64,000 nucleotides of DNA from Nitrosospira sp. Nsp2 (GTDB lineage: Bacteria; Pseudomonadota; Gammaproteobacteria; Burkholderiales; Nitrosomonadaceae): the NCBI RefSeq assembly GCF_003050965.1, contig NZ_QAOU01000001.1, positions 558,001-622,000 of the forward strand, written 5' to 3'. Below, in pieces: positions 45,833-64,000 of this stretch; position 1 is the stretch's first letter, and the number at the start of each line of letters is the position of its first letter. Both the position numbers and the translations under genes were made by a program. The notes under the pieces are model-generated. The model searched no databases. It saw only the letters and a list, made by a program, of their open reading frames with translations, and was not told the DNA's origin.

Positions 45833-46135
45833 CTAGCGAATTTTGGCTAAATAAGCATCTAGCGCATTCCGATCGAGATGATAGTGACAAATCTCCTCCC
45901 CGCCCTTCGCCACCAGCACTGGAACTCGTTCGCCATAACGCAGCCGAAGATCGTCGTCGCTGTCCACGTCCGTCACATCGAGGCGAAACGGGAGCCGCGC
46001 CTGCAATTGCCGCAGCGCGGCAATCATGTTCTCGCAAAGATGGCAGTGTTCCCGGGCATAAACCATCAATTCGATGGGGCTGTCGCCGGGAACAGGGCCT
46101 GGAGCGGGATTTGTTACCGGCTTACTTGTTGTCAC
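45833..46135 (-). CDS. Glutaredoxin-like DUF836 protein
   Basis: A 100-residue thioredoxin-fold protein. MVYAREHCHLCENMIAAL carries the CxxC pair (CHLC), and RYGERVPVLVAKGGEEICHY carries the cis-Pro. The first 20 residues are Pro-rich and disordered. It begins at a GTG inside the last 14 bases of mucD, so it is translated in coupling with it. In many proteobacteria this gene sits between mucD and lepA. The function is not settled. Confidence 0.85.
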   Translation of the reverse strand: MTTSKPVTNPAPGPVPGDSPIELMVYAREHCHLCENMIAALRQLQARLPFRLDVTDVDSDDDLRLRYGERVPVLVAKGGEEICHYHLDRNALDAYLAKIR

Positions 46136-47528
46136 CGTTTACTTTCATGGTAATGAAGGTGGTGGTATCGCCGCGCCGTACCAGGAGCGCGATGTTTCGT
46201 CCTTTCGGAGCCTTGTTAAGCAATTGGTTAAATTCCTCGACAGTTTTTACATCCTGGTTGTTGATGCTGAGAATCACGTCGCCTGGGCGGACGCCGGCGC
46301 GGGCGGCAATGCCCGGCCCCATATCCTCTACCAGCAGGCCGTTGTCCACCTCCAGCTGTTTCTTCTGTTCCGAAGTGAGTTCGCTCAGGCTCAACCCGAT
46401 TCGGTTGGTATCCGGGGCTTTCCCGCGCTTGCCGCCGCGCCCGGCGGCTTTCTCATCAGGCGGAAGCTCGTCCACCGTGACCGCGATGTCTTTGGTGGCG
46501 CCGTTTCGCCATACCTGTACCTGGACCTTCGACCCCGGCTTTGTTGCGCCTACGATACGGGGCAAATCACCTGAGCTGGTTACCGTTTTACCGTCAAATT
46601 TCAGAATGACGTCTCGCGGCTCAATCCCTGCTTTCTCTGCGGGACCGCCTTTCTGCACAGACGCGACCAGTGCTCCGCTTGCCTTGGGTAAGCCAAAGGA
46701 TTCCGCCAGTTCCTTGGTTACTTCCTGAATCAGGACCCCAATTCTGCCGCGGCTTACTTTGCCGCTCGCGATCAACTGGTTGGAAATTTCGGTGGCGACG
46801 TCGATGGGTATGGCGAATGACAAGCCCATGAATCCACCGGTGCGACTATAAATCTGCGAATTGATGCCGACTACTTCCCCCTTCATATTGAATAAAGGAC
46901 CGCCCGAATTGCCGGGATTGATGGCCACATCGGTCTGGATGAAGGGCACGAAGTTTTCCTGCGCCAGAGAGCGACCTTTGGCGCTGACAATACCCGCTGT
47001 AACGCTGTTCTCGAACCCAAAGGGCGCGCCGATAGCCACGACCCACTCGCCAACCTTGAGCTTTTCGGGATCGCCTTGGGTGACCTTGGGCAGACCCGTG
47101 GCATCAATCTTCAGGAGCGCGATATCCGTTCTCCGGTCGGCTCCGATCAGTTTGGCGCGGAATTCGCGCTTGTCCGTCAGTTTCACATTTATTTCGTCGG
47201 CCGTATCCACCAGATGGGTATTGGTCAGAATATAACCGTCCGAACTGATAATGAAGCCCGAACCCAGCGATTTCGACTCGAAATCTTTGGGCATTCCATG
47301 GGGAGGAGCGTAGCGTCGGAAGAACTCGAAGAAGGGATCATCCTCCGGAATATTCGGCATCCCGGGGAAAGTCCGGGTGCCCATGCTGGGAGCCTGGACC
47401 GTGCTGATATTCACCACGGCGGAGCCCTCCCTTTCAACCAGATCGGTAAAATTGGGCAGATCTCCGGGTTGCGCCGAAACGGCAGTAGATAAACCGAACA
47501 ACGCCACAAGAAAAAATTTGAGTATCAT
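46122..47528 (-). CDS. mucD: Periplasmic serine protease MucD (DegQ/Do family)
   Basis: A 468-residue protein with a signal peptide (MILKFFLVALFGLSTAVSAQ). The catalytic triad is H105 (LTNTHLV), D135 (RTDIALLKI) and S208 (PGNSGGPL). PDZ1 covers about 250-340 (GVLIQEV, VILKFDGKTV) and PDZ2 about 370-465 (GVRPGDVILSINNQDV). It degrades misfolded envelope proteins and restrains the sigma-E signal. It is the fourth gene of the rpoE operon, though 286 bases separate it from rseB, so it may have an extra promoter. Confidence 0.94.
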   Translation of the reverse strand: MILKFFLVALFGLSTAVSAQPGDLPNFTDLVEREGSAVVNISTVQAPSMGTRTFPGMPNIPEDDPFFEFFRRYAPPHGMPKDFESKSLGSGFIISSDGYILTNTHLVDTADEINVKLTDKREFRAKLIGADRRTDIALLKIDATGLPKVTQGDPEKLKVGEWVVAIGAPFGFENSVTAGIVSAKGRSLAQENFVPFIQTDVAINPGNSGGPLFNMKGEVVGINSQIYSRTGGFMGLSFAIPIDVATEISNQLIASGKVSRGRIGVLIQEVTKELAESFGLPKASGALVASVQKGGPAEKAGIEPRDVILKFDGKTVTSSGDLPRIVGATKPGSKVQVQVWRNGATKDIAVTVDELPPDEKAAGRGGKRGKAPDTNRIGLSLSELTSEQKKQLEVDNGLLVEDMGPGIAARAGVRPGDVILSINNQDVKTVEEFNQLLNKAPKGRNIALLVRRGDTTTFITMKVNGDNK

Positions 47529-51133: not shown

Positions 51134-52789
51134 GTGCCACGACTTCATTTCGATACTCTGATTATCGGCAGCGGTCTCGCCGGTCTTACCCTCGCCCTCA
51201 ATCTGGCATCCGGCAGGAAGGTTGGGCTGATCACAAAAAAAGCCTTGCTCGATGGAGCCAGCGGTTGGGCGCAGGGGGGCATTGCCGCAACGCTGTCGCA
51301 AGAAGATTCACCCGAATCTCACATCAGGGATACGCTTGTGGCAGGGGCTGGCCTGTGTAACGAAGCAGTTACCCGCTACGTGGTCGAAAACGGTCCGCAG
51401 GCCATCCAGTGGCTGATCAGCCAGGGAGTGCCATTTACCCGCGATCATGACAATGGGACCGGATATCATTTGACACAGGAGGGTGGCCACAGCGTGCGGC
51501 GTGTCATTCATGCGGCGGACGCGACCGGGCAGGCGGTTCAGCTCACCCTGATCGACCAGGCCCGCAACCATCCCAATATCACCGTACTTGAGCATCATGT
51601 CGCGATCGATCTCATTACCAGCGCGAAGTTGAGCCATCTGCCGGCGGCCGGCGATGGAAAGAGCAACCGCTGCTATGGTGCCTATGTGCTGAACAGCGCA
51701 ACTGGCCAGGTGCAAACCATCGGGGCGGGGAGTACCGTGCTGGCGACCGGCGGGGCGGGTAAGGTGTATCTCTACACCACCAATCCGGATACGGCCACCG
51801 GCGACGGCATTGCGATGGGTTGGCGTGCGGGTTGTCGGATTGCGAACATGGAATTCATCCAGTTCCATCCCACCTGCCTTTACCATCCGCATGCCAAATC
51901 GTTTCTAATCAGCGAGGCAGTGCGCGGGGAAGGGGGTCTGCTGAAGCTCCCTGATGGGTCGCGTTTCATGCCCTGGCACGACGCCCGCGCGGAGCTTGCG
52001 CCGCGCGATATCGTCGCCCGCGCAATCGACTTCGAGATGAAGAAGCGTGGGCTCGATTGCGTTTATCTGGATATCTCGCACAAACCCGAGGATTTCCTGA
52101 AGGAACACTTCCCCAACATTTATAAGCGCTGCCTGGAATTCGGCATCGATATTACCAGGCAGCCCATTCCCGTCGTGCCCGCGGCCCACTACACCTGTGG
52201 TGGCATCGTGACAGACCTTAACGGCAAGACCGACCTGGACAATTTATTTGCCGTCGGCGAGACCGCCCATACGGGTCTGCATGGCGCCAATCGGCTGGCA
52301 AGCAACTCATTGCTGGAATGCCTGGTATTCGGGCAGGCCGCCGCGAAGGATATTACCGGGGAGGCGCCCGAGCCTGCCGTGGACCTGCCCGACTGGGACG
52401 AGAGCCGCGTCACCAACGCCGATGAAGAAGTCGTCATCTCGCATAACTGGGATGAACTGCGGCGCTTCATGTGGAGCTATGTGGGGATCGTCCGGACCAC
52501 GAAGCGACTGGAGCGCGCGCGGCGCCGCATCGAGTTGCTGCGGGAGGAAATCAACGAGTATTACGCTACCTTCCATGTGACCAGCGACCTGCTGGAATTG
52601 CGGAATCTCGTCGATACCGCCGACCTGATCGTGCTAAGTGCCATGCTGCGCCATGAAAGCCGTGGCCTGCACTACAGCCGGGATTATCCGGAGTTGTTGC
52701 CGCAGGCAAGGGATACGATATTAAAAAAATCAACAATCAACAATCAACAATCAACAATTAACAATTCACAATTAACCATCAAACCATGA
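51134..52789 (+). CDS. nadB: L-aspartate oxidase NadB
   Basis: A 551-residue flavoenzyme that oxidises L-aspartate to iminoaspartate, the first step of NAD synthesis. [17 protein letters not shown] binds [29 protein letters not shown] and [13 protein letters not shown] carry the substrate- and flavin-site residues. It begins at a GTG. The natural end is near [11 protein letters not shown]. The final 15-20 residues ([19 protein letters not shown]) are encoded by a 7-bp tandem repeat and are not part of the family. Its stop overlaps the ATG of the next gene. Confidence 0.95.
52731..52779 (+). repeat. Seven-copy 7-bp tandem repeat (CAACAAT)
   Basis: Four exact CAACAAT units (52731-52758) are followed by TAACAAT, TCACAAT and TAACCAT. 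The repeat lies inside the last codons of nadB and runs up to the start of the OLD-like gene. Because 7 is not a multiple of 3, a change of copy number would shift the frame of the nadB tail and its overlap with the next gene. Confidence 0.9.
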
Positions 52790-54513
52790 ACCTTGAGTTC
52801 CCATCGAAATCTGCGCCCCGCGTGTCAATTAAAGAAATAGTTTTTAGCGATGGTACAGTCGTAGACGCGTCGGAAAATGACATTTTTGTAATTGTTGGTC
52901 CAAACAACGCGGGAAAAAGCGGTGCGCTTCGCGCTGTTAGGGAAAAGCTCGAAAATCCAATACACACAAGTCAGATCATAAGACAAATTACTGTTAATCG
53001 AACTGGTAGTTCTTCGGAATTTTTGGATTGGATTAAAAATTGGGCTCTGGTGCTAAACCATTTTGGTCCCGAGAACCCGATCTTCCAAGCCCTAGGGCAC
53101 GGAATGGCTAAACGTGATATTGAAAGCGTGTGGCCAAACGCAAATAATTCTCTCGGCGGTATTTCCCGCTGGTTTTGCCATCTTTTAACCACAGAGGAAA
53201 GGCTACAGATTTGTAACCCACCCACTAATATCTCGCTGCTTCATGATAACCCCGTTCATCCGATTCACTTTCTTCAGCGCAATGATGAACTAGAGCTAAT
53301 TCTTAGCGCAAGATTTCGGAAAGCCTTTGGGGTCGATTTGATAGTGCATCGAAATGCTGGTGGCATGGTGCCATTGTATGTTGGCGCAAGACCGGTTCCA
53401 GCAGAAAACGAAGACAGAGTCAGTATTGGCTATATAGCAAAGTTGGAGCAACTTCCAACTTTGCATACTCAAGGTGATGGGATGCGAAGCTTTGCCGGTG
53501 TTCTTTTGGCTACATCGATTGGCAGAGAGACAATAGTTTTAATCGATGAACCGGAAGCGTTTTTGCATCCGCCTCAAGCCCGTTTGCTGGGAACAACTAT
53601 GGTCCAAGACCGGTTGGAAGGCCGGCAGCTTTTTATCGCCACGCACAGCTCTGATGTTGTGCGCGGAATTCTCGATACAGGGAGTAAAAATGTTCGAGTG
53701 ATTCGTATCAAACGTCACGGGAATACCAATTCAGTCCGGCTTCTAGATAACGATAGAATCAAGGAACTGTGGGGGGACCCGCTTCTTCGTCATTCGAACA
53801 TTCTAGACGGGTTATTTCACGAAGCTGTCGTTGTATGCGAAGGTGACGCAGATTGCCGCTTCTATTCGGCCATAATGGATTCTATAATTATCGCTAATAA
53901 CGCCGAGCGGCGCCAAGATATCGTGTTCACCCACTGCGGGGGAAAAGCCCGCCTGCCAGTTGTCATTCATGCACTTCGAGAAGTTGATGTTCCTGTTTGT
54001 GCCATAGCGGATTTTGACATTCTTGCAGACGAGAGCACCCTATCTCGTGTTGTTACTGCCCTTGGCATGAATTGGGACGCTCTTCGGGCGGACTGGGAGA
54101 CCGTAAAGTTTGGAATAGATAGTAAAAAGCCTGAGCTCAAGAGCGACGAGATAAAGGCTGAGATAATCAAAATTTTGGATGGAATCAAGGGAAACCAGTT
54201 TTCTACAAAAGCAAAAAACGATATCCAAGCGATATTAAGACGATCATCGCCTTGGGCACAGGCGAAAAGTGTGGGCGAGGCATTCATACCGGCTGGAGAC
54301 GCATCAAAGGCAGCGAAAAGGCTGCTCGCAGAACTTCGAAAAGGAGGTCTTCATATAGTTGAAGTGGGCGAGCTAGAAGGTTTTGTCAAAACGGAAGCGG
54401 GGCATGGACCTAAATGGGTAAATGCTGTCCTTGCCAGGACGCTTGACACAGACCCTGAACTAGAGGCTGCTCGTAAATTCGTACAGAGATTGATCAAAGC
54501 TGATTCAGATTAA
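52786..54513 (+). CDS. OLD-like ATPase with a TOPRIM nuclease domain
   Basis: A 575-residue protein. The Walker A motif is VGPNNAGKS (residues 37-45). The ABC-type ATPase core continues with [13 protein letters not shown] and [20 protein letters not shown] (Walker B), then [21 protein letters not shown] domain starts near 345: [13 protein letters not shown] (Glu) and ICADFD-like [10 protein letters not shown] (DxD). This is the OLD/RecF-type arrangement found in phage-defence nucleases, but here it is alone. The DNA is visibly AT-richer than the genes around it, and its ATG overlaps the nadB stop. It is probably an acquired gene. Confidence 0.85.
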
Positions 54514-58187: not shown

Positions 58188-58217
58188 AAGACTACTCGCT
58201 AGTAGTCTTGCTTTTTT
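58188..58217 (+). terminator. Rho-independent terminator of the ABC exporter
   Basis: AAGACTACT-CGCT-AGTAGTCTT, a nine-pair stem, followed by GCTTTTTTAT. It lies 28 bases after the stop and touches the end of the convergent gene. Confidence 0.85.
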
Positions 58218-59625
58218 ATTTCCGGGAGAGTTCGCTCGTCAGGAATTCTGCCAGACGCCGCGCGTGCACCCTCAGTTCAGGAACTGCGATTGCTTCCCAC
58301 AGGCCGGCCTTCAGCATGGGACCGATATAGAAAAGGTTGTCTGCAGGCGCCCCACCGCGATCGACTACCTGGTACTCATCATTCACTTCGAACCCCAGCC
58401 TTGTGGGGTCCTGCTTCAGGTAGCCTTCGTCTCTCAACTGGGCGATCAGCGGTAGCGTTACCTTGCTGATATCGCAGGTTGGGCCGGTGCAGTTCACCAA
58501 GCGGCTGACATCGAGCTCCTTGGGTTGGCCGGTGTGCCTCTCCCGTATTCTGATCGATACGTTGCCGCCCTTTACTTCATAGCCCTGGATCTGGCCGGCT
58601 ACCGCTTCCACTTGCCCCGATTTGAGCATGTTTCTAAGGCGTAAATGCGCGGCCGGTGCGAGCCGATGGCGGTGTATGTCCCAATACGCGACAGCGCGGG
58701 AAAGAAATTTCTTCCGTTCTTCCACTGGAAATCGTTGCCATATGAGGGGCGTGTGGGGACGCAACAGGTTGATCGTGTCACGCCAGTCGCCCCCGTTTGC
58801 AGCATTTTTCCTGATCTCCAGCCGCAGGGCGTGAAAATAGGCGCGCACGGTTACGGGCAAATTCTCGAGAAACGACGGAAAACCGGCCGCGGCGGGCGGT
58901 TTTGGATTGAAACGGTGGGGCTGGGGAAAAAGCCCATGTCTCGAGATCAGGTAGACTTTCCGTGTGCTGCTACTGATGGTGAGGCGGAACAACACGTCGA
59001 ACGCGGTCAGCCCTGTACCCAGGATCGCGACCGGAGCCTCTCCATTCGTGCGTTCAAGCACAACAGAATCCCACGGATTGCCGATATATACGCCGCTTTC
59101 ATGGAGTCCGCTAATGGCAGCGGGGGTGGAAGGGGGAAAATGCCCGAGGGCAAGAACAACCTGATGGGACCGGATGCTTCGTCCATTCGCCAGATCGATC
59201 TGATAGCTATCATCCTCGGGGCGCTTCCGAATCGAGACGGCCTCGCCGCGCACCTGTTCGAACGGCGTTCCGCCACTTTGTTCTGCCGCCTGTTGCAGGG
59301 TGAGCTCCAGATAATCACCATAAAGCCGTCTTGACACAAACGTTGCGGAATTGAATGCAGGATCAATGTTCTGGCAAAACTGCACGAAATGGTTGGGGTC
59401 GTCCGGCAGCGCACTCATATTGCCGGCCGGCACATTCAATAAAAAATTATCGTCCCAGGTCCCATAAGCAAGTCCCCGGCCCGGCCGGGTGCTGCGGTCA
59501 ACAAGAACGATACGTACCGTCGCTCCCGGATTCCGGCGAAGGATATTGACAGCAGTGAGAGCGCCACAGAAACCGGCGCCAATGATCGTAATTATTTTTG
59601 TTGGTGAGGAGACGTTATCGCTCAT
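58216..59625 (-). CDS. FAD/NAD(P)-binding oxidoreductase-like protein
   Basis: A 469-residue protein with an N-terminal dinucleotide fold, IITIIGAGFCGALTAVNILR. It continues with RPGRGLAYGTWDDNFLLNVP, typical of the FAD/NAD(P)-binding family PF13454, and a second nucleotide-binding site at VAILGTGLTAFDVLFRL. LVNCTGPTCDIS is the FAD-contact segment before the C-terminus. The substrate is unknown. It is 150 bases from cysB on the same strand and may be regulated with it, but I see no direct evidence. Confidence 0.85.
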   Translation of the reverse strand: MSDNVSSPTKIITIIGAGFCGALTAVNILRRNPGATVRIVLVDRSTRPGRGLAYGTWDDNFLLNVPAGNMSALPDDPNHFVQFCQNIDPAFNSATFVSRRLYGDYLELTLQQAAEQSGGTPFEQVRGEAVSIRKRPEDDSYQIDLANGRSIRSHQVVLALGHFPPSTPAAISGLHESGVYIGNPWDSVVLERTNGEAPVAILGTGLTAFDVLFRLTISSSTRKVYLISRHGLFPQPHRFNPKPPAAAGFPSFLENLPVTVRAYFHALRLEIRKNAANGGDWRDTINLLRPHTPLIWQRFPVEERKKFLSRAVAYWDIHRHRLAPAAHLRLRNMLKSGQVEAVAGQIQGYEVKGGNVSIRIRERHTGQPKELDVSRLVNCTGPTCDISKVTLPLIAQLRDEGYLKQDPTRLGFEVNDEYQVVDRGGAPADNLFYIGPMLKAGLWEAIAVPELRVHARRLAEFLTSELSRK

Positions 59626-59777
59626 GGGTCGCTGTTTCCCAAAAGTCAGGGCGGCGCGGATCGCCTGAACAGTAATGTTTTGAAAGCAACAACGCGGGAA
59701 AAGGCGGATAGTCGGGGCATGCCGGAACGGTACGGGTGATAAACCGGGGTATAAATTTGCGGCATAACTTGTGCCGC

Positions 59778-60722
59778 TTAATCGGCGAGTTCCACGTCCA
59801 ACTCCGGCCTGACGCCGGATCGAACCGCCGCCTCGGTCAGCGATGGCAGGCAGAACTCGATGAAGCGGTAAGCATAGCCCCGAAGATAATGGCCGCGCCG
59901 GACGGAGATATTGGTTGTATGTTTTTCGAACAAGTGCGAGCTATCGAGCAGATTGAGCCGGGTATCGCGGTCGGGGTTGAAAGCCATTGACGCGACGATG
60001 CCAACCCCAAGCCCGAGTTCGACGTAAGTCTTGATCACGTCCGCATCCAGGGCCGACATGGCGATGTCGAGCACCAATCCTGCCTGCGCGAACGTCCGAT
60101 CGATTCCCGTCCGTCCGGTAAATCCCTCGTGATAGGTGATGATGGGGAACTCGGCAATAGCTTCCAGCGTGAGCGGGCGAACCGATTCAAGTGGATGTCC
60201 GTGTGGCACGATGACCGCATGATGCCAGGAGTAGTATGGAAATAAGGCCAGTTCCGCAGCGCTCTCCAGCGCCTCGGTTGCAATACCGATATCCGCCTGC
60301 CCATCGAGCAGCATCGACACAATTTCTCCCGGGCTGGATTGATGCAGGACAAGATGTACCTGGGGGAAGGCTTTCTTGAACTGGGTGACGACTGACGGCA
60401 GCGCATAGCGGGCCTGCGTATGCGTAGTTGCGATAGTGAGCCTGCCCTGGTCCCGCTTGCTGAACTGTTCGGCCAGTCGTTTGACATTCTTTGCGTCCAG
60501 CAAAATGCGTTCGACGATCTTCACCAACTCCTTGCCGGGGTCGGTTAATCCCAGCAGGCGCTTGCCCTTGCGCACGAACAATTCGATCCCCAGTTCATCT
60601 TCAAGATCCTTGATGTGCTTGCTTACGCCGGATTGGGAAGTAAACAGGGCATTCGCCGCGTCTGTCAGGTTGTAGTTCTGCCGGACCGTTTCGTGGATGA
60701 TGCGCAGCTGTTGAAAATTCAT
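59778..60722 (-). CDS. cysB: LysR-type regulator CysB
   Basis: A 314-residue transcription factor. The DNA-binding helix-turn-helix is LTDAANALFTSQSGVSKHIK, and MNFQQLRIIHETVRQNYNLT is the CysB start. The effector domain includes ATTHTQARYALP, where N-acetylserine and sulfate bind in CysB proteins, and TYHEGFTGRTGID. It normally activates sulfate assimilation genes when cysteine is low. It lies directly after the serine acetyltransferase, whose product chemistry supplies its inducer. Confidence 0.94.
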   Translation of the reverse strand: MNFQQLRIIHETVRQNYNLTDAANALFTSQSGVSKHIKDLEDELGIELFVRKGKRLLGLTDPGKELVKIVERILLDAKNVKRLAEQFSKRDQGRLTIATTHTQARYALPSVVTQFKKAFPQVHLVLHQSSPGEIVSMLLDGQADIGIATEALESAAELALFPYYSWHHAVIVPHGHPLESVRPLTLEAIAEFPIITYHEGFTGRTGIDRTFAQAGLVLDIAMSALDADVIKTYVELGLGVGIVASMAFNPDRDTRLNLLDSSHLFEKHTTNISVRRGHYLRGYAYRFIEFCLPSLTEAAVRSGVRPELDVELAD

Positions 60723-60757
60723 ATTGTTATTTTGACAAGAATAATATCGATAAAGGA

Positions 60758-61666
60758 TTAAATTCCGGCGCCACCCTCAAATGCTTCGTAACGTGCCTGC
60801 GCCTGTGAAATGCTGCTGCCAGGGGGCACACTGCGCGTAAGCCAGATGTTGCCACCGATGGTTGACCCACGTCCAATAGTGATTCGGCCCAGAATGGTGG
60901 CGCCCGCGTAAATGACTACATCATCCTCGACTATGGGGTGGCGCAAATTGCCTTTTATCAGCGCCCCATGCTCATCCACTGGAAAGCGTTTGGCCCCGAG
61001 TGTTACGGCCTGATATAGACGCACATGCTGGCCAATAATGGCTGTTTCGCCAATGACAACCCCAGTGCCATGATCAATGAAAAAACTCCCCCCAATCTGC
61101 GCACCCGGGTGAATCTCGATGCCCGTGATGGAGTGGGCAATCTCCGAAATCATGCGGGCGATGAGAGGAGTGCCAAGGCTATGCAGTTCGTGCCCGAGCC
61201 GGTAATGGGCGACGGCGGTAATGCCAGGATAGCAGACGAGCACCTCGTCCATCGTCCGCGCTGCCGGATCTCCCTCATAAGCCGCGCGGATGTCGCTGTC
61301 CAGCAAGCCGCGAATGTGCGGCAGGCGTTTGGCGAATGCGTGCACAATATCAGTCGCACGCTCGCGATCGGCATCGCCCAGTGTCTCCAGTTGCGAGGCA
61401 AAGTGCAACTCGCGGCTTACCTGTACCAGCAACTCACGCAGCGCCACATCCAGCGTATGGCCGACGTAATAATCAATGCCCGCATCGGTGAGTTCCGGCT
61501 GGCCCAAGCGGTTAGGGAACAACGCGGCGCTTAATCCCTCCACAATACCTGCGAGGGCTTTGCGCGACGGAAGCTTGGGCGGGCGGTCGCGGCGTTGCCT
61601 GTATTCCAGCGACGCAACCCGTACCGCCCGCAACTCGGCGACAATGTCATCAATACTGCGCTGCAT
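60758..61666 (-). CDS. Serine O-acetyltransferase (EpsC/SrpH-like)
   Basis: A 302-residue left-handed beta-helix acetyltransferase that makes O-acetylserine, the cysteine precursor. The long N-terminal helical domain (1-130) marks the EpsC/SrpH branch. The hexapeptide region has IEIHPGAQIGGSFFIDHGTG, VVIGETAIIGQHVRLYQAVT and GAKRFPVDEHGAL. The C-terminal tail does not have the usual Ile end of CysE. In the srp locus of cyanobacteria the homologue is srpH. It stands 35 bases before cysB and 212 bases after the desulfurase, all on the minus strand. Confidence 0.9.
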   Translation of the reverse strand: MQRSIDDIVAELRAVRVASLEYRQRRDRPPKLPSRKALAGIVEGLSAALFPNRLGQPELTDAGIDYYVGHTLDVALRELLVQVSRELHFASQLETLGDADRERATDIVHAFAKRLPHIRGLLDSDIRAAYEGDPAARTMDEVLVCYPGITAVAHYRLGHELHSLGTPLIARMISEIAHSITGIEIHPGAQIGGSFFIDHGTGVVIGETAIIGQHVRLYQAVTLGAKRFPVDEHGALIKGNLRHPIVEDDVVIYAGATILGRITIGRGSTIGGNIWLTRSVPPGSSISQAQARYEAFEGGAGI

Positions 61667-61878
61667 GCCTTTTAACGGAGATCCATCATTTTTCTTTGGA
61701 GAAAATGTCTGTGGCGCGAGGGGAGGGACAGGTCATGCGGACGCCCCGTTGTCGCGCTCGGCACCGGAAGTGCCGGACCCCGAATTAGCCTTCTCCGGGA
61801 TCCGGCGGATTAACGCAGCGGTGGGCCCAGCCTCCCTGTATTTCACCCTTTTTACCTTGCTCTGCGCCCTGTGCCGCG

Positions 61879-64000
61879 TTAAAAAATATTACGTCCGCCG
61901 CGCAGGCGATGCAATGCCGTCACCAGAGCATCGACATCCGCGAACGTGTTGTACATTGCCAATGAAGGACGTACCGTGGTTTCCAGGCCGAAACGGCGCA
62001 GGATCGGTTGGGCGCAGTGATGTCCCGCGCGTACCGCGATTCCCGCCTCGTTCAATCCGCTGCCGACCTCTTCGGTGGTGAATCCTTTGAGTGCGAAGGA
62101 CAGCACGCCTGCCTTGTCCTTAGCCGTGCCAATCAGCCGCAGCCCGGGAACAGTACTGAGGCCGCGTGTCGCGTAAGCCATCAACTCATGCTCGTAGCGG
62201 TTGATGTTGTCGATGCCGATGCGTTCCACGTACTCTAGCGCAGCACCAAGTCCCACCGCATCCGCAATATTTCCCGTCCCCGCCTCAAAACGCGCCGGCG
62301 CCTCGTGGTATTCCGTCTTCTCAAAGGTGACGTTCTGGATCATGTTGCCGCCTCCCTGCCATGGGGGAGTGGAATTGAGCAGGTCCCTTTTACCGTACAG
62401 GGCCCCAATCCCGGTTGGACCGAATACCTTGTGGCCGGAGAAAACAAACCAGTCGCAATCGAGTTGCTGCATGTCTACGCGCATGTGCGAGACGGACTGG
62501 GCCCCATCCACCAGCACCCGGGCCCCGACTCGGTGCGCCATCTCGATCATTTCCCGGGCTGGGGTTACGGTGCCGAGTGCGTTCGAAACCTGGGAGAGCG
62601 ACACGACTTTAGTACGCGAGCCGAGCAGTTTCTGATATTCATCCAGCAATATCTGGCCATCGTCGTCCACTGGCGCCACGCGAAGTTTCGCACCTACCGC
62701 GTTGCACAACTGCTGCCAGGGGACGATATTGGCGTGGTGTTCCAGCCAGGTAATGACGATTTCGTCCCCTTCCCTGACGTTTTGCCGGCCCCAGCTGTGA
62801 GCAACAAGGTTGATCGCCTCGGTCGTTCCCCTGAGAAAAACGATCTCGTCTGCCGACGGCGCGTTGAGGAAGCGGCGCACGGTTTCCCGCGCGCCCTCAT
62901 ACGCATCGGTGGCCCGCGCAGCGAGTTCATGCGCGGCGCGGTGAATGTTGGAGTTTTCGTGCTGGTAGAAATACGTCAGGCGATCAATGACGGATTGAGG
63001 CTTCTGCGTGGTGGCGGCATTGTCCAGCCAGATCAGGGGGCGACCGTTTACCCGTTCAACCAGGATCGGGAAGTCGCGTCGCACGGCATTGGCGTCAAAC
63101 GGGGGATGCGCTCCTGTAAACCCTGGCATCGCCGATGCCCGGGCGCCACTGCCGAACGGGGTGGCACCGTCGAGAAAATAGAACGACGGCTCATCGGTGC
63201 GAGGAATAGGCAGCGCGCCCGTGCCAGCCGAGGTTCCGGAATTGCTGCCAGGAATTTCATAGGATGGAAGAACAGAAGGCACGCCAGGAAACCCTGTAAA
63301 CGGGCCGGTATCGGCAAAGGGAATATCAGTGCCGAACGCCGGAGGTTCGGGAAGGTTCATTGCCTGTGCGGCTGCGCCAGCATAGGGAATAGCGTAATGA
63401 GACCCCCCTGCCTGCGCGGCGAATGGCGCGAAACCAGCAGGGCCTGGCCCGGCCGCGGCGGACGGTGGCACGTCGTATGGTCCCTTTGGGGCGACCGGGG
63501 AGGGTGCAGGCGTTCGCGAAAACGGCGTAGCAGAAGCGGAACGGGGCACATGGTACGGGCCCTCGGGAGCGATCGCCGACGCTGCATGCGTTCCCGGCAC
63601 AGGCGCTGCGGCAGCGGATGGCGGTACGCCGTATGGCCCCTTCGGGGCAACCGGGGAGGGTGCAGGCGCCCGCGAAAACGGCGTGACGGAAGCGGAAGGG
63701 GGTATATGGTATGGGCCCTCGGGAGCGATTGCGGACGCTGCATGCGTTCCCGGCACAGGCGCCGCAGCGGCGGAGGGCGGTACGCCGTATGGCCCCTTCG
63801 GGGCAACCGGGGAGGGTGCAGGCGTCCGCGAAAACGGCGTAGCGGAAGCGGAAGGGGGTACATAATATGGGCCTGCGGGAGCAACCGGGTGGGCCGCGGT
63901 GGCCCTGGGATGAGAGGCAGCCATATCCGAGCCGGGAACCTCGGACAGTATCCCCTCAGGTCGATGATTAACGAAAGACGGCGGAACGTGCGCCGCTGCC
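61879..64000 (-). CDS. SufS-like cysteine desulfurase, probable family 2A encapsulin cargo (start beyond window)
   Basis: The catalytic part (about 275-681, counted from the ATG at 63924) is a class-II cysteine desulfurase: LDNAATTQKP, LEHHANIVPW, LVDGAQSVSHMRVD, PLP lysine K499 in FSGHKVFGPTG and catalytic C637 in RAGHHCAQPI. It makes a persulfide from cysteine. In front is a Pro/Ala/Gly-rich low-complexity segment of at least 240 residues ending in SFYFLDG, with six 26-residue repeats at 63421-63888. This extended N-terminus is what family 2A (SrpI) encapsulin cargo desulfurases carry as targeting domain. The frame stays open without stop to the window edge (64000), so the ATG at 63924 is probably internal. 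Serine acetyltransferase and cysB follow. Confidence 0.88.
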   Translation of the reverse strand, partial: AAAHVPPSFVNHRPEGILSEVPGSDMAASHPRATAAHPVAPAGPYYVPPSASATPFSRTPAPSPVAPKGPYGVPPSAAAAPVPGTHAASAIAPEGPYHIPPSASVTPFSRAPAPSPVAPKGPYGVPPSAAAAPVPGTHAASAIAPEGPYHVPRSASATPFSRTPAPSPVAPKGPYDVPPSAAAGPGPAGFAPFAAQAGGSHYAIPYAGAAAQAMNLPEPPAFGTDIPFADTGPFTGFPGVPSVLPSYEIPGSNSGTSAGTGALPIPRTDEPSFYFLDGATPFGSGARASAMPGFTGAHPPFDANAVRRDFPILVERVNGRPLIWLDNAATTQKPQSVIDRLTYFYQHENSNIHRAAHELAARATDAYEGARETVRRFLNAPSADEIVFLRGTTEAINLVAHSWGRQNVREGDEIVITWLEHHANIVPWQQLCNAVGAKLRVAPVDDDGQILLDEYQKLLGSRTKVVSLSQVSNALGTVTPAREMIEMAHRVGARVLVDGAQSVSHMRVDMQQLDCDWFVFSGHKVFGPTGIGALYGKRDLLNSTPPWQGGGNMIQNVTFEKTEYHEAPARFEAGTGNIADAVGLGAALEYVERIGIDNINRYEHELMAYATRGLSTVPGLRLIGTAKDKAGVLSFALKGFTTEEVGSGLNEAGIAVRAGHHCAQPILRRFGLETTVRPSLAMYNTFADVDALVTALHRLRGGRNIF
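63421..63888 (-). repeat. Six 78-bp repeats encoding the Pro/Ala-rich desulfurase N-terminus
   Basis: Units of 26 codons alternate between two forms: PVAPKGPYGVPPSAAAAPVP... and AIAPEGPYHIPPSASVTPFS.... They form three tandem 156-bp pairs. Copies are close to identical at DNA level and stay in frame, pointing to recent expansion by slippage or unequal recombination. Confidence 0.9.

Follow-up and report, generated by a model that had tools for sequence, protein, structure and literature searches.

The right edge of the 64,000-nucleotide window analysed here (Nitrosospira sp. Nsp2, contig NZ_QAOU01000001.1, positions 558,001 to 622,000) cuts through what is, judged by sequence comparison, very probably an intact-looking family 2A (SrpI-type) encapsulin locus, comprising genes for a shell protein, a cargo cysteine desulfurase, a serine acetyltransferase (SAT) and a CysB-type regulator. 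Compartments of this known kind are virus-derived protein shells that pack a sulfur-releasing enzyme; storage of elemental sulfur in such a shell was reportedly described in 2024. The locus is otherwise ordinary in kind; the analysis extends what is known of such loci by the long, tandemly repeated tether of the cargo, by losses within the genus and by a sequence block that recurs near sulfate-binding protein (SBP) genes. No paper pairing an encapsulin with Nitrosospira was found in the literature searched. A sulfur-handling nanocompartment is thereby established, at the sequence level, in ammonia-oxidising soil bacteria.

Four open reading frames follow one another on the minus strand at the right end of the window, exactly where the initial annotation had placed them, and the family models agree with their proposed identities. 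The same annotation took the locus for family 2A and expected a shell gene beyond position 64000. Both expectations are borne out when the window genome (G000) is read past the edge, in the stretch L002 (G000:C1:615001-635000; window position = L002 position + 57000). Shell and cargo both pass family 2A models, and the shell gene lies directly upstream of the cargo gene on the minus strand, at G000:C1:622238-623173 (L002:7238-8173, window scale 64238-65173). The gene order on this strand is shell, cargo, SAT and CysB, with a gene for an FAD/NAD(P)-binding protein downstream of CysB. The shell protein, 311 residues long, reaches 515.2 bits against the family 2A shell model NF041162 (cutoff 380), and its single Pfam match is SrpI-like (PF19307, 334 bits, cutoff 22.8). 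Among solved structures its best match is SrpI (6x8m, E=2.5e-149), and it is 72% identical to SrpI of Synechococcus elongatus. In an alignment to SrpI, the fivefold-pore residues G194 and P196 are kept, as are two residues close to the cargo density, F262 and Y273; all four are described in the text of PMC8049743. From its homology to 6x8m, the shell protein is predicted to adopt an HK97 fold and to self-assemble as a T=1 icosahedron. The nearest named shells, at 94% identity, belong to Nitrosospira sp. Nsp14 and to a Nitrosospira metagenome-assembled genome. Nothing was found to speak against this assignment; the shell narrowly passes the family 2B model too (408.1 bits, cutoff 400), but over half of the profile only (best stretch positions 212-449 of 450). 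The cyclic nucleotide (cNMP)-binding domain that marks family 2B did not appear in the Pfam scan of the shell.

The cargo desulfurase gene occupies positions 61879..64000 of the minus strand and continues outside the window. Its likely start is an ATG at window scale 64254 (or 64266), 254 bases beyond the edge, which overlaps the stop codon of the shell gene; the ATG at 63924 is internal, because the desulfurase frame stays open to the window end. Read from its start, the protein scores 894.7 bits against NF041166, an exception-type model for family 2A encapsulin cargo (cutoff 800). The catalytic part aligns with CyD, the S. elongatus cargo, and two stretches are identical in both proteins: SGHKVFG (62419..62439, minus strand), which we take to be the pyridoxal phosphate (PLP)-lysine site, and RAGHHCAQP (62005..62031, minus strand), presumably the catalytic cysteine site. 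In a class-wide search, the cargo model found matches in 368 of 369 genomes, nearly all under the cutoff; as far as scores tell, these sub-cutoff matches are ordinary desulfurases. Only 4 of the 369 pass, the window genome among them. None of the 14 control genomes passes, S. elongatus included; since its plasmid carries the system, the control copies may lack plasmids.

The initial annotation had described the N-terminus of this cargo as long, disordered and rich in Pro and Ala; Pro, Ala, Ser and Gly indeed make up 60% of its 385 residues, versus 27% in the catalytic part, disorder being judged from this composition only. Comparison with family 2A cargo N-termini, as had been suggested, revealed both of the motifs named in the text of PMC8049743. 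The first, LTRLANEFYS, begins at residue 26 (window scale 64150-64179, minus strand, outside the window), and EPSFYFLDG at residue 355 (63166..63192, minus strand) is the counterpart of the published AASPYYFLDG. Between them stand six GPYxxPxSA units at an exact spacing of 26 residues (63457..63873, minus strand), and a seventh, related copy (TPYNVPHSA) is found at residue 77. At the DNA level, the array has a 156-bp period repeated 2.7 times, with 88% matches and 0% indels (L002:6458-6882, window 63458-63882). The corresponding DNA of Nsp14 has a 78-bp period repeated 3.5 times with 68% matches, and encodes four units; genome G005 has three, and five other Nitrosospira outside the window species have none to three. 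Measured between the LTR motif and NAATTQ in the catalytic part, the distance is 386 residues in the window protein and in genome G468, 351 in Nsp14, 344 in G005 and 190-225 in the others. The N-terminus of the window cargo exceeds in length those in the related loci that gave a cargo match (77 of 80, see below).

A stricter pattern, GPYxVPPSA, occurs in 4 of 81 N-termini, all from Nitrosospira; the regular expression was designed after viewing the sequences and was used for this tally only. The 81 N-termini are those of the window protein, of 75 of the 80 related loci and of 5 of 6 plasmid loci, leaving out L058, L086 and L098, where no cargo was matched, L042, whose sequence has masked letters, L045, whose N-terminus is truncated in the frame, and L112, with 90 residues. 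No relative of the cargo N-terminus was found among solved structures, and the text of PMC8346489 states that no specific targeting peptide has been identified in desulfurase systems. Second copies of LxRLANEF were considered as a general multivalent loading signal and rejected. With a profile built from first motif copies, which 57 of the 81 N-termini possess, 18 of these 57 show a second copy at p<=0.05, where about 3 would be expected. The window protein, at p=0.95, is therefore not explained by such copies. Other repeats were noticed in passing, namely motifs of the LPxxxELxxLF type in the disordered N-termini of cargo proteins from methanotroph loci (L063, L081, L085 and others) and, judged by eye, a duplicated SLxQLxQxVLQD stretch in S. 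elongatus CyD (L107). The tandem units provide natural length variants for the study of cargo loading by a disordered tether.

By analogy with S. elongatus, for which cargo loading via the N-terminus and desulfurase activity are reported in the text of PMC8049743, 60 shell copies would assemble into a T=1 capsid about 24.5 nm in size, with the desulfurase tethered to the inner shell wall by its disordered N-terminus. Cysteine would enter through the fivefold pore, its sulfur being released inside.

To place the locus among its relatives, a set of 80 related family 2A loci was compared. Many of them are cut by contig ends, so that the neighbour counts, obtained with identity thresholds, are lower bounds. 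Shell and cargo adjoin in 77 of the 80, and the other three (L058, L086 and L098) gave no cargo match. An SAT homologue is present in at least 66 loci, an SBP in at least 44, CysT or CysW in at least 43 (23 with one on the strand of the shell) and CysB in at least 9. In at least 11 loci the shell stands between SBP and CysT, all on one strand, and nine of these are of a Nitrosomonas type with an EAL gene. The order in one of these, L031, is porin-SBP-EAL-shell-cargo-CysT-CysW-CysA-SAT-CysB (domains checked for five genes, transporter names partly from homology). The Nitrosomonas loci resemble the window locus in pairing shell with cargo, in having SAT and CysB on the strand of that pair and in a related promoter-like block upstream. 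They differ in that the pair is inserted in the sulfate-transporter string, whereas the string porin-SBP-EAL-CysT-CysW of the window genome stands on contig C3, apart from the shell locus. An EAL-domain protein inside this string, in both Nitrosomonas and Nitrosospira (L031:9079-9900; L179:2570-3427), is a side observation. The window locus has a further SBP gene, divergent from the shell (L002:8836-9912). The word transporter is absent from the main texts of PMC8049743 and PMC8346489, although an adjacency to sulfate transporters may stand in their supplementary neighbourhood tables; in the text of PMC8049743, sulfate transport appears as a general starvation response and in the references.

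The SrpI/CyD system on plasmid pANL of S. elongatus PCC 7942 (PMC8049743; PDB 6x8m, 6x8t) shares with the window locus, besides the shell, an EpsC neighbour, the catalytic part and active-site stretches of the cargo, and a disordered N-terminus in which both motifs, or counterparts of them, are found. Its order, cysK-epsC-srpI-cyd-rhodanese, is unlike the shell-cargo-SAT-CysB order with divergent SBP seen here, and the cargo N-terminus of the window is longer and tandemly repeated. Another close locus is that of Nsp14 (L027/L155), with the same gene order, including the FAD gene and the divergent SBP. It differs by its four tandem units instead of six and by the lower identity of SBP (71%) and of the FAD protein (77%).

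Within the genus, the shell cutoff is passed in 8 of 22 genomes, and 9 of 23 are carriers once G468 is added. The neighbourhood is largely conserved in carriers and non-carriers alike: GH114, YgfZ, in some cases SBP, the shell-cargo pair with or without SAT where present, CysB and an ABC gene. The CysB site could be read in 13 of the 14 non-carriers, G016 being left out for want of a close CysB orthologue, and remnants of shell or cargo were found in 4 of these 13. Cargo fragments at the CysB site of G006 and G018 are 80% identical to the encapsulin cargo, versus 56% and 43% to the housekeeping SufS. The pieces at the same site in G010 are 79%, 89% and 56% identical to the cargo, the first two versus 57% and 55% to SufS. 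G008 has a broken shell fragment (residues 64-139) beside an SBP gene on another contig, and none at its CysB site. The remnants are located at L154:6439-6664 (shell) and at L162:7755-7955, L164:9356-9610 and L168:414-710 (cargo); at E<=0.01, neither shell nor cargo was matched at the other nine non-carrier CysB sites. On a tree of the four flanking genes (21 genomes; G018, G017 and G015 with 14%, 41% and 42% of the columns), the carrier label needs two changes and the remnant label three. Taken together, the pattern and the tree fit an ancestral presence followed by several deletions; the tree alone cannot separate gain from loss. Such losses inside one genus amount to natural knockouts.

A conserved stretch of the minus strand upstream of the shell (L002:8525-8665, window scale 65525-65665) forms a promoter-like block with a leader and a hairpin. 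In a five-genome alignment its elements are, in order and on the strand of the shell, TTAT, AAAA, GATAAG, CAAATGAA, TATTGGTTC, CTGATAAC, TTCTCC and a hairpin with a T-run; in the window genome, 361 nt separate its end from the downstream start of the shell gene. The block is present in all nine carrier loci, and directly before CysB in five genomes without the shell. These 14 copies were used to build the model R1, and match it by construction. Among the other eight non-carrier sites, R1 found one further weak case (L167, 53.6 bits), so that the block is kept at 6 of 13. R1 matches 30 of 101 relatives at E<=0.01. The 21 matching genomes of the genus, to which the SBP tally is confined (10 matches lie outside the genus), hold 44 block matches, 14 at the shell/CysB site and 30 elsewhere. 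Of the latter, 27 have an SBP gene or a piece of one within 5.5 kb, and 24 lie upstream of it in the same orientation (chance about 1.2%). Block matches also occur about 2 kb upstream of an SBP gene in Nitrosomonas (L031, 36.7 bits; L035, 34.7; L043, 48.0; and L040, 26.5, only E=0.06).

The likeliest interpretation is that the block acts as a shared promoter/operator of a sulfur-limitation response, although shared control with sulfate import is less certain than the identity of the locus. Low sulfur would switch on the locus together with sulfate import, through a block resembling the promoter of the sulfate-transporter operon. CysB is probably its reader, and the SAT would supply O-acetylserine for cysteine. 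Such a tie with sulfate import would give the compartment a testable rationale. Several results weigh against shared control. The block was not found at 7 of the 13 non-carrier sites, and 3 of the 30 second sites have no SBP gene near (G008:C9, G005:C18 and G012:C1:1635773). No sigma-70 consensus was found in the block region. The number of hairpins there is at the level of shuffled sequences (1 found, 1.1 expected), covariation is seen in 1 of 17 hairpin pairs, and the Rfam matches are sub-threshold only, among them a weak one to suhB/mmgR (27.1 bits, gathering 41).

The last match, weak as it is, also belongs to a different explanation, in which the block would be more than a promoter, namely a small-RNA gene in its own right or an attenuator in the leader. 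Conservation of the hairpin and following T in 13 of the 14 aligned copies, and persistence of the block before CysB in the five genomes without shell and cargo, plead for it. So does a leader motif near TCTCC, for which the nine carriers show a complementarity of 5 to 12 bases to the region of the shell start. The longest perfect match is of 12 bases in G021, a length reached by 1 of 672 control starts, and G017 has 5 (173 of 672); internal ATGs and the shell starts are counted among these controls. In the five non-carriers, the match with the CysB start is weak, with 6 bases (reached by 59-61 of 672). The nine second-site alignments viewed match mainly over the first 70 or so block positions, with one G012 copy also forming the hairpin. 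With the shuffle and covariation results also against it, this explanation is possible, though less probable than the shared promoter/operator. A joint reading for the Nitrosomonadaceae, put forward tentatively, combines both. The nanocompartment would be a built-in branch of the sulfate-uptake response, with one promoter block for sulfate import and shell/cargo. The short hairpin leader (attenuator or small RNA) would be a second layer of control able to outlive deleted shell and cargo genes, and the tether, growing by 26-residue tandem duplication, could tune packing.

The downstream genes are less specific. The SAT (60758..61666, minus strand) is of EpsC/SrpH (EpsC/CysE) type, with 163.4 bits against NF041874 (cutoff 150) and 165.5 against TIGR01172, below its cutoff of 210.65. 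A second SAT at C1:274310 scores 171.2 bits in a genome search that gives 166.9 for the operon copy, both under the cutoff. The CysB-family LysR-type regulator (59778..60722, minus strand) scores 447.9 bits against NF009327 (cutoff 402), and a second gene over this cutoff lies at C2:702557. The initial annotation regarded SAT and CysB as typical of family 2A operons, which holds for SAT, a usual neighbour. CysB is a core Nitrosospira gene and not specific to the encapsulin, because its orthologues are kept at the same place in genomes where shell and cargo are absent. The text of PMC8346489 reports SAT and/or rhodanese as enriched in family 2A operons; no rhodanese was seen among the neighbouring proteins scanned around the window locus.

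The last gene of the row encodes an NAD_binding_9 flavoprotein (58216..59625, minus strand, PF13454), which the initial annotation named as a possible further partner; its role might lie, for instance, in sulfur redox chemistry. The gene follows CysB, in the same orientation, in the window genome, G468 and Nsp14, which favours such a role, yet in the 22 genus genomes it has no match in six of the eight carriers (G002, G005, G012, G015, G017 and G021). It is full-length in G000, G001 and G008 and fragmentary in G003 and G011; in G018 it is divided between two contigs, and the first of the two pieces adjoins CysB. The G008 copy lies elsewhere in that genome, and neither G008 nor G018 has a whole shell gene. 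In the 80 related loci, the only other case is a 30%-identical protein in L085. The proposal is thus not supported: partnership is improbable, and the gene would be a neighbour, not a credible component of the compartment. It is hardly conceivable that the desulfurase is of the ordinary Suf type, extended by low-complexity sequence and close to cysteine genes by chance, with no compartment: the catalytic part does match the general SufS model (566.6 bits), but the shell gene overlaps the desulfurase start, the cargo-specific model is passed with both motifs present, and a separate SufS-like gene, 52% identical to the cargo over 396 residues, exists on contig C9.

Three observations concern other parts of the genome. 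A possible defence gene at window positions 52786-54513 encodes an OLD-like ATPase that includes a TOPRIM domain, and the protein encoded at 46122-47528 contains a stretch resembling the protease part of a PADLOC RT-Protease_XI model (59.7 bits). More than 480 kb from the locus, a Phage_capsid match (PF05065, 277.5 bits, G000:C1:139263-140123) belongs probably to a prophage and not to an encapsulin.

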